Assembly (NCBI GenBank): GCA_030145055.1
Contig: JAQYWK010000005.1
Location: forward strand, 186,001 to 250,000
Source of the DNA: Desulfovibrio sp.
GTDB lineage: Bacteria > Desulfobacterota > Desulfovibrionia > Desulfovibrionales > Desulfovibrionaceae
Direction of reading: 5' to 3'
Length of the DNA stretch: 64,000 nt
Within the stretch, counting starts at the first letter, position 1. The number at the start of each line of letters is the position of its first letter. A model generated the notes under the pieces. That model worked only from the letters and a program-made list of their open reading frames with translations. It did no database searches and was not told where the DNA came from. The position numbers were made by a program, and so were the translations under genes. Below, piece after piece: positions 6,249-12,409 of this stretch.

Positions 6249-7304
6249 ATGAGCTATAAAATGATAAGCGCTGCAGCAATTGCTGCTCTCTTTATATTAT
6301 CTTTAAGCTTTTTCTTTGTTTGGTCTGAAAGCCCTACGGAGGCCGGAATGAATAATGAATCAACGCTTGCTATTGCTACTGTTGCGGGTGGCTGTTTTTG
6401 GTGCGTAGAATCGGACCTTGAAAAGGTTCCCGGTGTAGATAAGGTTGTATCCGGCTATATCGGCGGGCATGTGGATAATCCAACCTATGAACAGGTTAGC
6501 TCAGGTACAACAGGGCATCTGGAAGCCGTTCAAATTTATTTTGATCCACAGCAGGTCAGCTATGCTCAAATACTTGATGTCTTCTTAAGGCATCATGATC
6601 CTACTGATGCGGGCGGGTCATTTAATGATCGAGGCGTTCAGTACACTTCTGCTATTTTCTATCATGATGAAAAGCAGAAGGAGATTGCAGGGAAGGCGCT
6701 TGTGCAACTCGATGGTTCAAAGCGTTTTGAAAATCCTGTTGCCACCAAGCTGATTCCGTTTACCACGTTTTTTGAAGCTGAAGATTATCATCAGGATTAT
6801 TACAAGAGGAACCCTGTTCGGTATAACTGGTACAGATTCAGTTCTGGGCGTGATTCTTTCATCAAGGAACACTGGGGTGATGAAGCGAATGAGCTAGAAA
6901 AGACACTTACCCCGTTGCAGTTCAAGGTTGTCCGCGAGAATGGGACAGAACCAGCCTTTTCTAATGAATATTGGGATAACCACCTAGATGGAATATATGT
7001 GGATGTTGTCTCAGGTGAGCCACTATTTAGCTCTGCGGATAAGTTTGAGTCCGGCACTGGCTGGCCTAGCTTCACACGTCCTCTTGAGAAGAAGAATGTA
7101 GTGGAAGTTGCGGACGATACTTTCTTTATGAAGCGGACAGAGGTTCGTTCCTTTGATGCTGATTCCCATTTGGGGCATGTTTTTTCAGATGGACCGGCTC
7201 CAACTGGACTCCGTTACTGTATAAATTCAGCTTCTTTACGGTTTATTCCTAAGGAGGAGTTGGAAGAGCAGGGTTATGGGAAGTATTTGGAACTCTTTAA
7301 GTGA
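6249..7304 (+). CDS. msrAB: Membrane-anchored bifunctional methionine sulfoxide reductase MsrA-MsrB
   Basis: The 351-residue fusion begins with a hydrophobic helix (about 5-25), so both enzymes are exported or anchored facing the periplasm. MsrA follows with GGCFWC (catalytic Cys49). MsrB occupies the C-terminal part with GTGWPSF, the HLGHVF stretch and [11 protein letters not shown] (catalytic Cys near 324). Together they reduce the S and R forms of methionine sulfoxide in proteins, repairing oxidised envelope proteins. The MsrB part reads SGEPLF where zinc-binding forms have CGxPLF, so it looks like a zinc-free MsrB. AGGA precedes the ATG at good spacing. A strong terminator follows at 7329, so it is probably a single-gene unit. 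Confidence 0.95.
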
Positions 7305-7472: not shown

Positions 7473-8297
7473 ATGGCGTTACTCTCGATTGTTGTTCCCA
7501 ACTATAATTATGGACACTTTGCAGATAGATTTTTCGGCTCAATTCTCACCCAAACTCTTGGGCTTGATGATGTTGAAATTATTTTCGTAGATGATGGCAG
7601 TGATGATGATTCCCTTCAGTTTGCTCAGAAATGGGCTGATAAAATTAAGTGCGACCGGTTTGAAATTTTAACACCTGCTCGGTGCGGAAAACCTGGTCCT
7701 GTTCGCAACTACGGGCTTGAGAGAGCTAAGGGCAGATACTTAATTTGCCTTGATCCTGATGATACCTTAGAGCCTAATTTTCTATTAGCTTGTATCGAAA
7801 CTCTTGAACTAAACCAAGAACTCGATCTCGTTTACACAGACTATAATGAAAACAGTGCGGATGGGTCGCGGGTAGTTCACCTCCCCAAATTCAGCCCCGC
7901 TCACTTGCGAAGTCAGAATACCGTATCGCCTTCAGCTCTTTATCGGCGCAAACTTTGGGATGCTGGAGTTAGATATCGTGATAATACTTCCTATGAAGAC
8001 TGGGATTTCTGGGTTCAATGCTTGGTAGCTGGTGCAAAATTTCAATTAATCCCGCAGGCCTTATATAATTACGAAGTGCATGGAACTAATTTTTCGCTTC
8101 AAGCCGTTAAAAGCGATGGAGCCGCCAAGGCGCAAATTGTACTTAACAATCCTTCCTTTTTCGGCTCCATTGTTTACGAATGGGCGGGTGCTCATCTGCG
8201 CGGCAGACTTCATGCCTCAGCCTTTCAGCGAGGTTGTATACCGCGTCCAGTTGATATAAAAGCCCTCTTGCTCAAAATGGATAGCGGAGAAATTTAA
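7473..8297 (+). CDS. Family 2 glycosyltransferase
   Basis: This is a 274-residue GT-A fold enzyme. It opens LLSIVVPNYNYG, has FVDDGSDD in the nucleotide-binding part, DPDD as the DXD-type metal-binding motif near residue 97, and YEDWDFW as the likely catalytic-base region. It would transfer a sugar from an activated donor to an unknown acceptor, perhaps an envelope polysaccharide. No membrane helix is visible. An AAGGGA ten bases before the ATG is a usable but loosely spaced ribosome binding site. No other polysaccharide gene is nearby, so donor and acceptor cannot be predicted. Confidence 0.88.
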   Translation: MALLSIVVPNYNYGHFADRFFGSILTQTLGLDDVEIIFVDDGSDDDSLQFAQKWADKIKCDRFEILTPARCGKPGPVRNYGLERAKGRYLICLDPDDTLEPNFLLACIETLELNQELDLVYTDYNENSADGSRVVHLPKFSPAHLRSQNTVSPSALYRRKLWDAGVRYRDNTSYEDWDFWVQCLVAGAKFQLIPQALYNYEVHGTNFSLQAVKSDGAAKAQIVLNNPSFFGSIVYEWAGAHLRGRLHASAFQRGCIPRPVDIKALLLKMDSGEI

Positions 8298-8346
8298 TAG
8301 TAAATGCCTGATAAGATTTAACCTTGTCGTAATCGGTCTTATTCAT

Positions 8347-9279
8347 ATGAAAATAATAATGATAGGCGTCTTGGCCGCACTCTTTTTTAGCACAACTTTT
8401 GTACTGAACAGAGCAATGAGTCTTGAAGGCGGACACTGGGTATGGTCTGCAAGTTTGCGCTATTTCTGGATGCTAGGCATTTTGTCCGTGGCTCTCTTTG
8501 CCGTCCGGCGCGATCTTTTTATTGAGTCATTAAAACTTTACGCGCGCCACTGGTTATTCTGGACTGCGGCTGGTGGAATTGGGTTCGGGCTATTTTACGC
8601 GTTACTTTCATTCAGTGCTTCTTACGCGCCCGGATGGGTTGTTGCGGCTACTTGGCAGACCACTATTCTCGCTACGCCTATAGTCCTGCTTGCTTTCGGT
8701 AAAAAAATTCCGTTGCGGGCCATGCTATTGACTTTAATAATCTTCGCGGGAGTTTTACTGATAAATGTTGAGCGCGCTGGGACTGATTCCTTAGCTGATA
8801 TTTTATTAGGTGCAATCCCTGTATTTATTGCCGCGTTTGCTTTTCCTTTCGGAAATCAGCTCGTTTGGGAGGCCCGGCAGGGTGGCACACGGCTAATACC
8901 GCACTTAGCCAGCCCAGCCATGGACGATCCTTTTTGCCGTGTATTGCTTTTGACACTAGGGTCATTGCCTTTGTGGGCTTTATTAATACTGGTCCTTTCT
9001 CCGCCACCGCCTGCTATGGGGCAGGTGCTCAATACCGCCTTAGTTGCACTGTTCTCTGGTATCGTGGCAACAAGTCTTTTCCTTTATATTCGCCACAAAG
9101 CCACGTCGGCCTCAGAGCTCGCCGCTGTAGATTGTACTCAGTCCATGGAAGTGGTTTTCTCTCTGCTCGGCGAAGTAGCCTTGCTTGGAGGTCTATTGCC
9201 CGGTTTACTCGGATGGGCAGGTATAGCCTTAACCATGCTTGGATTAGTGCTGTATATTAGAGTGCAGAATGTACGTTAA
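8347..9279 (+). CDS. DMT-superfamily (EamA-like) multidrug/metabolite transporter
   Basis: The 310-residue protein is almost entirely hydrophobic, with about ten predicted membrane helices in two similar halves. It resembles the multidrug-efflux branch of the drug/metabolite transporter superfamily. Motifs near the N-terminus (FFSTTFVLNRAM) and the C-terminal half (SMEVVFSLLGE) fit. It should export a small compound across the inner membrane, substrate unknown. Its stop overlaps by 23 bases, tail to tail, with the remnant of a cysteine hydrolase on the other strand. A spacer of about 50 bases separates it from the glycosyltransferase. Its ribosome binding site is weak. Confidence 0.85.
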   Translation: MKIIMIGVLAALFFSTTFVLNRAMSLEGGHWVWSASLRYFWMLGILSVALFAVRRDLFIESLKLYARHWLFWTAAGGIGFGLFYALLSFSASYAPGWVVAATWQTTILATPIVLLAFGKKIPLRAMLLTLIIFAGVLLINVERAGTDSLADILLGAIPVFIAAFAFPFGNQLVWEARQGGTRLIPHLASPAMDDPFCRVLLLTLGSLPLWALLILVLSPPPPAMGQVLNTALVALFSGIVATSLFLYIRHKATSASELAAVDCTQSMEVVFSLLGEVALLGGLLPGLLGWAGIALTMLGLVLYIRVQNVR

Positions 9280-9541
9280 ATTCCTCTGTTGTAATCATTT
9301 CCGCATATACCGCACCAAGAGCGGCCATGAATGACGCATGCACTTTGTCTGACGGAACTTTCACTCCGTTAAATTCGAGGGAAGCTGCTGCGCACGCATC
9401 ATGGATGACGGTGCAAGTGAATCCTAAATCGAATGCCGCCCTTGTGGTCGCATCTACGCACATATTGCTCATCATGCCGACGATGGTCAGTTTGGTGATA
9501 TCGTGGTCGCTCAGTGTTTTACTTAGCCCTGTTTCACGAAA
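9257..9541 (-). pseudogene. Cysteine hydrolase (isochorismatase family), 3' remnant
   Basis: Reading leftwards from about 9541, the frame gives FRETGL, then TIVGMMSNMCVDATTRAA, then EFNGVKVPSDKVHASFMAAL. This is the C-terminal part of an isochorismatase-like cysteine hydrolase and includes the nucleophile-containing MSNMCVD motif. The first 100 or so residues, with the catalytic Asp and Lys, are absent. The frame stays open beyond 9541, but the residues no longer fit the family. From the same point the other strand encodes a truncated GlxA-like regulator. The remnant has no plausible start before the MM at 9475. It is best read as a decapitated gene, the product of the same deletion that truncated its neighbour. 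Confidence 0.75.
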
Positions 9542-10293
9542 TTCCGCCTGTATTTGGCGATTTGGATGTTCTTCGAAGTAATGTTGATCTCATAAAAACA
9601 ATACAGAACGCCAGCCGTGATGGCGCTATAATTGCGACCATTTGTGCGGGGTCCTTTCTGCTTGCCGAAACAGGCTTTCTTGATGGTAAAGTTGCTACTA
9701 CATACTGGAAATTAACCCGCGAATTTATGAATAAATACCCCGAAGTTGATCTTCAATCAGATCAGATGTTGATAGATGGTGGTAATTATATCTGCGCTGG
9801 TGGCGCTATGGCGTGGCAGGATTTGGCTTTGCACATAGTCGCACGATTTATGAGCAAGGATGTAGCTTCGCAATGTGCGAAGGTCTTGGTTATGGACAGC
9901 ACTCGTCATGTGCAGACTCCATATTTCATGTTTGATCAGCATCTTGAGTTCTCATCCGGTTTTACGGATAAGAACATTGTTAGCGCTCAAAAATGGATGC
10001 AGAAAAATTACCATCAAGCTGTGGATCTCGGGAAGCTTGCAGAAATAGCCGAGGTGGGCGTGCGCACTTTTTTGCGTCGCTTTAAGCGGGCAACCGGAGT
10101 TACGCCATTGCAATATTTACAGCAGTTGCGCATCGAGTCCGCAAGGCATTTGCTTGAAGTCAGCACAAAAAATATTGAAGAGATTACTGGAGCGGTTGGG
10201 TACGAAAATACTTCGTCATTTCGAAGGTTGTTTAAGAAGGAAACAGGTCTTACGCCTGTAGAATATAGAAAGAAATTTAGCAGATTAACTTAG
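9541..10293 (+). pseudogene. GlxA-family (DJ-1/PfpI + AraC HTH) transcriptional regulator, N-terminally truncated
   Basis: The recognisable protein starts near IPPVFGDLDVL, followed by IATICAGSFLLAETG, the cysteine elbow of the DJ-1/PfpI-like domain. Two AraC helix-turn-helix units complete the C-terminal half (GVTPLQYLQQLRIESARHLL and NTSSFRRLFKKETGLTP). Intact family members run about 310-330 residues. Here the first 70-90 residues, including the beta strands opening the amidotransferase-like fold, are missing. The open frame extends upstream to a GTG at 9514, but that stretch overlaps the hydrolase remnant and has no ribosome binding site. The DNA-binding half is intact, so a short product could still bind DNA. 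I favour pseudogene. Confidence 0.7.
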
Positions 10294-10307
10294 ACATTGA
10301 AGTTGTT

Positions 10308-11117
10308 CTATTGCTTCTCGATATCCAGTTCTCGCTTGGTAGAGTAAAGAAACCGCACTAGGTCATACTCGAATGGTGAACCCGTTTGATAGTAGCGGAA
10401 AGGCTGTTTTTCTCGCAGGTTCAGACCACGTATAGTGGCTTCTCCAGCACCGATCAGGGTTCTTCCATCTTTTACACCTAGAACATCGTAAACAAAGTTC
10501 ATTTCGGCCCATAGCAGAGCAGAATCTCCGGCAAGTCCGGCTGCATCTCGTACGGATGATGGCCCAAACATTGGCAGCACAACATAAGGTCCGGGGCTAA
10601 TTCCCCAAACTCCCAGTGTATCGGCCGTAGATGTGACAACTCTTTTTATGCCCCAGTCTTCTGCCACATCCATTATTCCCAGAATTCCTACCGTGGAATT
10701 TATGATCAGCCGATAGCAGGACCGCAGTAATTTTTCGCCTCTTCCCTGCAGGGTGCTGTTAATGATGGAGTTAAGCTCATTTAGATTATTGACGGCATTG
10801 CTAACGCCTTTTCTGACAGGTTTGGGGAGTACTGTTGTGTAAAGATTCAAGGTCGGAAGATATACCGCACGGTCGAATTCTGCGTTGAAAGAATAGACAT
10901 GTCTGTTCATCGGTCCCCACGGATCGTAAACATCAAGAAATTCCAAGTCAGCTTGCTTGCGCATAATATTAGTAGGTGAAGGCGCATGTGATACAGGCGT
11001 CATAAAGCCTGTCGGCGGTAGAGTCATGTCGGGGTCTTCTTTCTTTATGGTCGCGCAGGACGGGATAAGCAGAAGAACTAAAAATAGCAGTAGGTATTTG
11101 AATTGCGAATTAATCAT
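10308..11117 (-). CDS. mlaA: MlaA (VacJ) family phospholipid-transport lipoprotein
   Basis: The 269-residue protein has a lipoprotein signal with lipobox IPSC (Cys21), then the MlaA core: DPWGPMNRHVYSFN, a PKPVRKGVSNAVNNLNEL helix and GPYVVLPMFGPSSVRD. MlaA sits in the outer membrane and removes mislocalised phospholipids from the outer leaflet, passing them to the MlaC/MlaFEDB system. None of the other mla genes is in this window. Its ATG overlaps the stop of the upstream hydrolase in an ATGA, so the two are translationally coupled. The C-terminus nearly meets the AraC-type remnant, with 14 bases between the stops. Confidence 0.93.
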   Translation of the reverse strand: MINSQFKYLLLFLVLLLIPSCATIKKEDPDMTLPPTGFMTPVSHAPSPTNIMRKQADLEFLDVYDPWGPMNRHVYSFNAEFDRAVYLPTLNLYTTVLPKPVRKGVSNAVNNLNELNSIINSTLQGRGEKLLRSCYRLIINSTVGILGIMDVAEDWGIKRVVTSTADTLGVWGISPGPYVVLPMFGPSSVRDAAGLAGDSALLWAEMNFVYDVLGVKDGRTLIGAGEATIRGLNLREKQPFRYYQTGSPFEYDLVRFLYSTKRELDIEKQ

Positions 11118-12409
11118 TTCAACATCTCCTGCGCCTTAAGAGCGTAGGGGCCGAACATGATATTTCCGCAATGGCCGCCTCGTGAAAAGAATACAGCCCG
11201 ATTTCCGAAAGTTTTGCGTAGGAAGGTTACTTCTTCTTCGTCAAGAATGATGTCATCGGAATTGCCGAGCACGAAAATTTTATCCGATTTTGCGAGGTAT
11301 TCTTCGATACTTTCAAGACTGCATCGACGGATCAGTTCCTCTTTTGTGATGCCGGGTGTGATGAATTGCTGATACGGAAGCAAATATTCATCAATATAGT
11401 CTTCGAATTTTATTGCTGCTGCGACTTTGGTGTAGGGTAGGAGATTGTCACCAATGGCTAACGTCTTGCTAACGGGGACAATATATCCGGCATTGATACA
11501 GACATCTGATGCGAAAAGCATGTTTGCAGAGCTTAGTCTGAACGATGCCGCAATGATCGCCCGAAGGTCCATGTCAGAAATGCTGTCATGCTGCGACAGT
11601 CCATAGAGAAAGTTATCATCGAAGTCAGTTACATCTGTATGGAGATACATTTCAGAAAATGATTGGATGAGATTATCAATAACTTCACGCGGTTTTTTAT
11701 CACCGAGGTTCGACGGACTGAGCCATGAGTCAAATCTCTGCGCGGATGTGTAAAGGGATACAGGCGGATTCATCATCAGTACTTTATCAAATGAAAAGTC
11801 GCCGCGTTCTTCATCTAGTTTAGCTAGAAATGCCGAATGCATTGCGCCTAAGCTATAACCAGTGACATTATATCCACTTATTTTGTAGTCTTCTTCAAGG
11901 TCAGCTTTGATCCACTTCATCACTCTGTATAAATCTTCTACGTCATTTGGCGCATAGCCCGGTGCTCCGTATCTTGAAGCACTGACAACGAAGTTCATAT
12001 GCGTGGGAGAAGAAATTGCTACAACGTGAAAGCCTGATTCATAAAAAAGCTGAGTCAGAAACTTCATTTTGGTCGAGTCATGCTCTGACCCTGTTCCGGC
12101 GATTATGAAGAGAAGCGGAGCTTCTTCTTTCTGCATGGCTGTGGTGTAATAAAAATCTTCACTGTACCAGAAAATCTCCGGAATTCTGCGATCTTCAATA
12201 CTAATTTCGCATGGCTTGGTGTCAATAGGATTTGCGAAAGTGTGAACTAAATCAGGGGGCGTGCCAAATATCGTCGCTTTGTATGGATCGGCTATGGGGA
12301 ACTCGGAAGTTTCGGCAAAAGCGTTCAAGCTGGAAAAAAGTGTAAAAAAGAGCATCGCAAGAAATGTTGCAAAATTGAACTTATCTATATGATGTCCCTT
12401 TTTAAGCAT
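11114..12409 (-). CDS. Exported alpha/beta-hydrolase-fold protein coupled to mlaA
   Basis: The protein has 431 residues with an N-terminal signal helix (about 12-32, ending NAFA). The body has the alpha/beta hydrolase pattern: LLFIIAGTGSEHDS for the oxyanion region, then GYSLGAMHS, a nucleophile elbow with Ser as nucleophile. Near the C-terminus FVLGNSDDIIL supplies a candidate acid, and RGGHCGN a His. It therefore looks like an active periplasmic serine hydrolase. Coupling to the MlaA lipoprotein by a four-base overlap suggests a role with phospholipids or the outer membrane, possibly lipase-like. That role is inferred from context only. Confidence 0.8.
   Translation of the reverse strand: MLKKGHHIDKFNFATFLAMLFFTLFSSLNAFAETSEFPIADPYKATIFGTPPDLVHTFANPIDTKPCEISIEDRRIPEIFWYSEDFYYTTAMQKEEAPLLFIIAGTGSEHDSTKMKFLTQLFYESGFHVVAISSPTHMNFVVSASRYGAPGYAPNDVEDLYRVMKWIKADLEEDYKISGYNVTGYSLGAMHSAFLAKLDEERGDFSFDKVLMMNPPVSLYTSAQRFDSWLSPSNLGDKKPREVIDNLIQSFSEMYLHTDVTDFDDNFLYGLSQHDSISDMDLRAIIAASFRLSSANMLFASDVCINAGYIVPVSKTLAIGDNLLPYTKVAAAIKFEDYIDEYLLPYQQFITPGITKEELIRRCSLESIEEYLAKSDKIFVLGNSDDIILDEEEVTFLRKTFGNRAVFFSRGGHCGNIMFGPYALKAQEMLK

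Follow-up and report, generated by a model that had tools for sequence, protein, structure and literature searches.

A single deletion probably disabled two divergent genes, a cysteine hydrolase and an AraC-type regulator, in a Desulfovibrio genome

Between the gene of an EmrE-type DMT exporter and mlaA, a Desulfovibrio genome carries two partial genes, one for an isochorismatase-type cysteine hydrolase and one for a DJ-1/PfpI-AraC regulator, which stand head to head at position 9541 of the 64,000-nucleotide stretch analysed (hereafter the window). Judged from sequence comparison, a single deletion that postdates the split from the nearest congener compared (G012) most likely, with a probability of about 90%, produced both remnants, which would be pseudogenes and would represent one of three separate losses of the pair in a small clade. 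The window lies on contig 7 of a genome (G000) of 3.9 Mb, assembled in 7 contigs and 99.99% complete, and its relevant features are collected in Table 1. The layout agrees with the initial annotation, which had placed the hydrolase (minus strand) and the regulator (plus strand) abutting head to head near 9541, and its landmarks, FRETGL in the hydrolase and IPPVFGDL in the regulator, were found as it stated. The first codons of the frame that opens at 9514 sit within the hydrolase remnant, on the opposite strand. Elsewhere in the window, positions 6249–7304 encode a 351-aa protein that by eye resembles a signal-sequence-bearing fusion of the methionine sulfoxide reductases MsrA and MsrB.

Table 1. 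Features of the exporter–mlaA interval, in window coordinates.
Feature	Position	Strand	Details
EmrE-type DMT exporter, intact, left flank	8347..9279	+	Pfam EmrE, E 1.6e-90; 91% identity to G012
Remnant of isochorismatase-type cysteine hydrolase, without start or own stop	9257..9544	-	G012 residues 92 onward
Junction of second difference (64 bp) relative to G012, seven tied placements	9275..9281		
Junction of 640-bp deletion	9540..9541		
Longest frame able to express the regulator remnant	9514..10293	+	GTG start, 259 aa
Remnant of DJ-1/PfpI-AraC regulator, DNA-binding domain kept	9541..10293	+	G012 residues 82-331
mlaA, intact, right flank	10308..11117	-	Pfam MlaA, E 3.2e-55; 92% identity to G012

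The divergent pair is complete in G012, where the hydrolase (182 aa) and the regulator (331 aa) lie between the same exporter and mlaA flanks. Alignment with blastn yielded two collinear blocks (window 9277–9541 = G012 locus L003 3151–2887; window 9541–11200 = L003 2247–588), and joint-breakpoint scoring favoured 9540/9541 as the junction, with 640 bp missing and zero inserted bases; about 1 bp is common to both deletion ends in present-day G012. Since 640 bp of the G012 sequence are missing where the two blocks adjoin at 9541, the alignments point to one deletion that accounts for both truncations, as the initial annotation had proposed. In G012 numbering, hydrolase residues 1–91 were removed, D10 and K86 among them, with C119 of NMCV retained, and regulator residues 1–81 of 331 were removed, with the CAGSF elbow and the DNA-binding domain retained. 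The 123 bp that separate the two start codons in G012 are absent from the window. Comparison with G012 confirms the earlier proposal that the N-terminal parts of both genes are missing; as for the shared promoter also said to be missing, the inter-start stretch is gone and must presumably have carried the promoters. In deletion-derived bacterial pseudogenes, a short deletion whose ends share little or no homology takes away starts and promoter. The present case is alike in all these respects and differs in that two divergent genes were struck at once, a neat geometry for a kind of event that is not new.

It is very unlikely that the junction reflects an assembly error in a genome that really carries the full-length pair, because the assembly consists of 7 contigs and is 99.99% complete, the junction lies far from the contig ends (C7:195541 of 315425), the roughly 1 bp shared by the G012 ends leaves no repeat to collapse, the missing DNA is absent elsewhere in the assembly and the 3′ end of the hydrolase is altered too. 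A whole-genome DNA search for the lost sequence plus short flanks returned the locus itself only and no second copy, which rules out a relocation of the missing part within the genome. Likewise, a protein search of the genome with the intact hydrolase ruled out an intact ortholog at another site, returning the remnant and just one paralog of 28% identity (C4:59617); five other regulator matches in this genome reach 29–37% identity. Two separate truncations that share an end base, or a rearrangement, could formally have joined the two 3′ parts, but nothing specific speaks for this course, which is exceedingly unlikely given that both sides are collinear with G012 and with each other and meet at one junction with no inserted bases.

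The hydrolase remnant covers an incomplete Isochorismatase domain (PF00857), matching the Pfam profile at positions 99–153 of 175 only (E 1.2e-16), whereas the full-length G012 hydrolase matches positions 2–154. Residues D10, K86 and C119 of the G012 hydrolase, which we take to be the Asp–Lys–Cys catalytic triad of isochorismatase-like cysteine hydrolases, align at the same three positions with 3lqy. Because the remnant begins at residue 92, Cys alone remains and two of the three are gone. A second lesion affects the 3′ end of the gene, where the window lacks 64 bp relative to G012, with seven equivalent junctions near the exporter TAAA. Because of this difference, the hydrolase frame is without a stop of its own, and it overruns the oppositely oriented exporter gene by 23 bases (window 9257–9281). 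Exporter–hydrolase spacing ranges from −4 to +66 in the ten congeners in which it is measurable, and the spacer of G013 is also long (66). The missing hydrolase stop favours a loss of the 64 bp in the window, as the probable direction of change, over a gain in G012.

Among 16 other congeners surveyed, 12 keep the divergent pair (G001, G002, G003, G004, G007, G010, G011, G012, G013, G014, G015 and G016), one has lost the regulator, two have lost both genes and one (G009; 84% complete, ~310 contigs, exporter cut at a contig end) was too fragmentary to be scored. In the 12 pair-keeping congeners, the genes lie on opposite strands with their starts facing, the hydrolases span 181–185 aa and the regulator frames 318–368 codons, and 336–372 bp separate the hydrolase start from the regulator codon at which the window remnant begins. 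The relatives with an intact pair that the initial annotation had called for thus exist, with G012 keeping it between the DMT exporter and mlaA, and a short regulator form conserved across species is ruled out, as all 12 orthologs are longer than the 264 codons of the window frame. The exporter adjoins the hydrolase in nine of the 12 and lies ~590 kb away in G015; in the protein comparison of congeners, no exporter match was present in G002 and G011. The regulator lies 1–2.4 kb from mlaA in several congeners, with other sequence in between. Identity to the retained regulator part is 87% in G012 and 76% in G014. The loci of these two relatives share with the window both genes, their strands and the adjacent DMT exporter, and differ from it in that their hydrolases (182 and 183 aa) and regulators (331 and 352 aa) are whole, the window lacking 640 bp relative to G012; G014 further differs by an extra gene between the regulator and mlaA. 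This gene (L004 2428–3642), which follows the regulator on the mlaA side, encodes a 404-aa protein of membrane-fusion (HlyD-type) appearance by eye. A wider contig search recovered four distant loci with 37–40% identity over the best segment, no congener among them, which were left unused. Among the literature matches listed, none was evidently a paper on this hydrolase–regulator pair.

The three congeners with losses resemble the window in that genes of the same pair were deleted between the same exporter and mlaA, and differ in that, in the window, a 3′ part of each gene has survived. In G008, the whole hydrolase is kept and the regulator is reduced to its final 18 codons, before mlaA (L024 2990–3133), by an independent deletion of ~1 kb, which joins at an AAAAA tract that is present at both ends in G014. 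Both genes are lost in G006, where eight regulator codons and the stop survive between exporter and mlaA (L026), and in G005, where no remnant was seen between the two flanking genes. The surviving regulator remnants identify the state of G008 and G006 as loss and not original absence.

To place these losses, a tree was built from the exporter and MlaA proteins of 14 congeners, three of the 17 (G002, G009 and G011) being dropped for want of a whole copy of one protein. Support was high for G000 with G012 (99/98), G008 with G014 (100/100) and G005 with G006 (98/96); the fork that unites the latter two pairs was weaker (86/87), which leaves the loss count unaffected. Scored as ‘pair intact here’, with the moved pair of G015 counted, the character requires four changes, three of which are forced by strongly supported branches alone, and this label was no more clustered on the tree than shuffled labels. 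Since every loss either sits beside an intact sister or occupies a supported branch of its own, the tree shows three separate losses in one six-species clade, unless the pair was regained. The pair is therefore dispensable in that clade, in all six members of which exporter and mlaA are kept.

Selection was assessed by pairwise comparison, relative-rate tests, parsimony counts, a five-taxon codon model and a six-taxon codon model run from several starts; the placement of G011, G013 and G016 in the codon models was assumed (G011 lies outside the tree), all p values are nominal and, for most outgroups, synonymous distances approach saturation. Between window and G012, omega was 0.185 for the hydrolase remnant and 0.106 for the regulator remnant, against 0.050–0.128 (six pairs) and 0.064–0.088 (four pairs), respectively, in the computable congener pairs without the window. 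For the hydrolase, a rise was only weakly indicated: omega on the window branch was estimated at 0.54 in the first, five-taxon fit (p 0.058) and at 0.93 against a background of 0.098 in the six-taxon fit (nominal p 0.021), and the relative-rate test (p 1.0, 0.039 and 0.774) was significant with one outgroup of three. The window-branch omega of the regulator hit the upper bound (LRT 5.89) and is not identifiable, the intact G012 gene fitting better as foreground (LRT 7.26). No rise in omega was detected for mlaA and the exporter (p 0.785 and 0.334). Both remnants remain open with no internal stops, which means that either the deletion is recent relative to the G012 split or the regulator part is still used.

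The regulator remnant matches HTH_18 over positions 1–79 of 80 (E 7e-25) and HTH_AraC in two stretches; the C-terminal AraC-type DNA-binding domain thus keeps its two helix-turn-helix motifs, which bears out the earlier claim that both were retained. The N-terminal DJ-1/PfpI domain is incomplete, as the remnant begins at G012 residue 82 of 331 and matches DJ-1_PfpI at profile positions 76–164 of 165 (E 4.8e-9), compared with 31–164 in the full-length G012 regulator. The best NCBIfam model for the regulator, FtrA, scored 183 bits, below the cut-off of 425, so the protein was given no named equivalog.

The complete HTH_18 domain and the open frame of 264 codons leave room for a reading in which the deletion is real and the hydrolase alone is dead, the regulator remnant still being expressed through read-through from the exporter, from GTG 9514 or TTG 9562, as a shortened, ligand-independent DNA-binding protein. 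We regard this as unlikely. Downstream of an in-frame stop at 9496, the common-type starts up to 9760 are GTG 9514, TTG 9562 and ATG 9727. The strongest anti-Shine-Dalgarno pairing of these starts is that of GGUGAU upstream of GTG 9514 (−8.4 kcal/mol), but this motif is 14 nt distant, and such a spacing between ribosome site and start is farther than usual. Six intact starts taken as a yardstick gave pairing of 0.1 to −7.5; the intact G012 regulator itself scored 0.1 (no pairing), so a missing good site would not prove silence. On the plus strand, no terminator-like site was found from the exporter end to 9514, and a promoter-like match lies at 9229–9258; it is one of 2 such sites in window 8200–10500, however, against 3.4 expected. 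G012 likewise gave 3 sites against 4.0 expected; of these, one (10 of 12) lies 6–34 bp upstream of the regulator start. As these matches fall below chance, they do not locate the lost promoters. Further points against expression are the two terminator-like plus-strand sites inside the regulator remnant (9660 and 9866), the loss of half of the DJ-1/PfpI domain and the loss of the whole or nearly whole regulator in three other congeners, which makes it dispensable in the clade. The open remnants and the 87% identity of the regulator part to G012 accord with continued use as well as with a recent deletion. There is only a slim chance that the deletion freed an AraC-type regulator from its ligand control and left a short, ligand-independent DNA-binding protein co-transcribed with the upstream exporter; if it did, one event would have destroyed an enzyme and rewired its regulator. 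As a separate observation, terminator-like sites exceeded the shuffled expectation in both stretches scanned, partly inside the regulator gene (7 against 2.6 in window 8200–10500; 6 against 2.0 in L003 1400–3300 of G012).

The preferred reading remains a single 640-bp deletion which, after the split from G012, took the 5′ parts of both divergent genes together with the inter-start stretch. It left head-to-head 3′ remnants: the hydrolase, deprived of its start, keeps one of three catalytic residues, and the regulator lacks its start along with residues 1–81. Both lack the start and 5′ end where their orthologs are intact, as expected of pseudogenes formed by deletion; neither gene would still function in its former way, and both are, most probably, pseudogenes. 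The event is one of the three separate losses of the pair in the six-species clade, unless the pair was regained.

Collectively, these results describe ordinary gene erosion caught part-way, a known kind of event. For annotators, the two open frames here are best treated as remnants and not as short functional variants. The locus shows cleanly, in a natural case, how a single deletion can disable two divergent genes, and its small clade also contains an intact sister species and other stages in the loss of the pair; the retention of the exporter where the pair is lost suggests that the exporter may be independent of the regulator.
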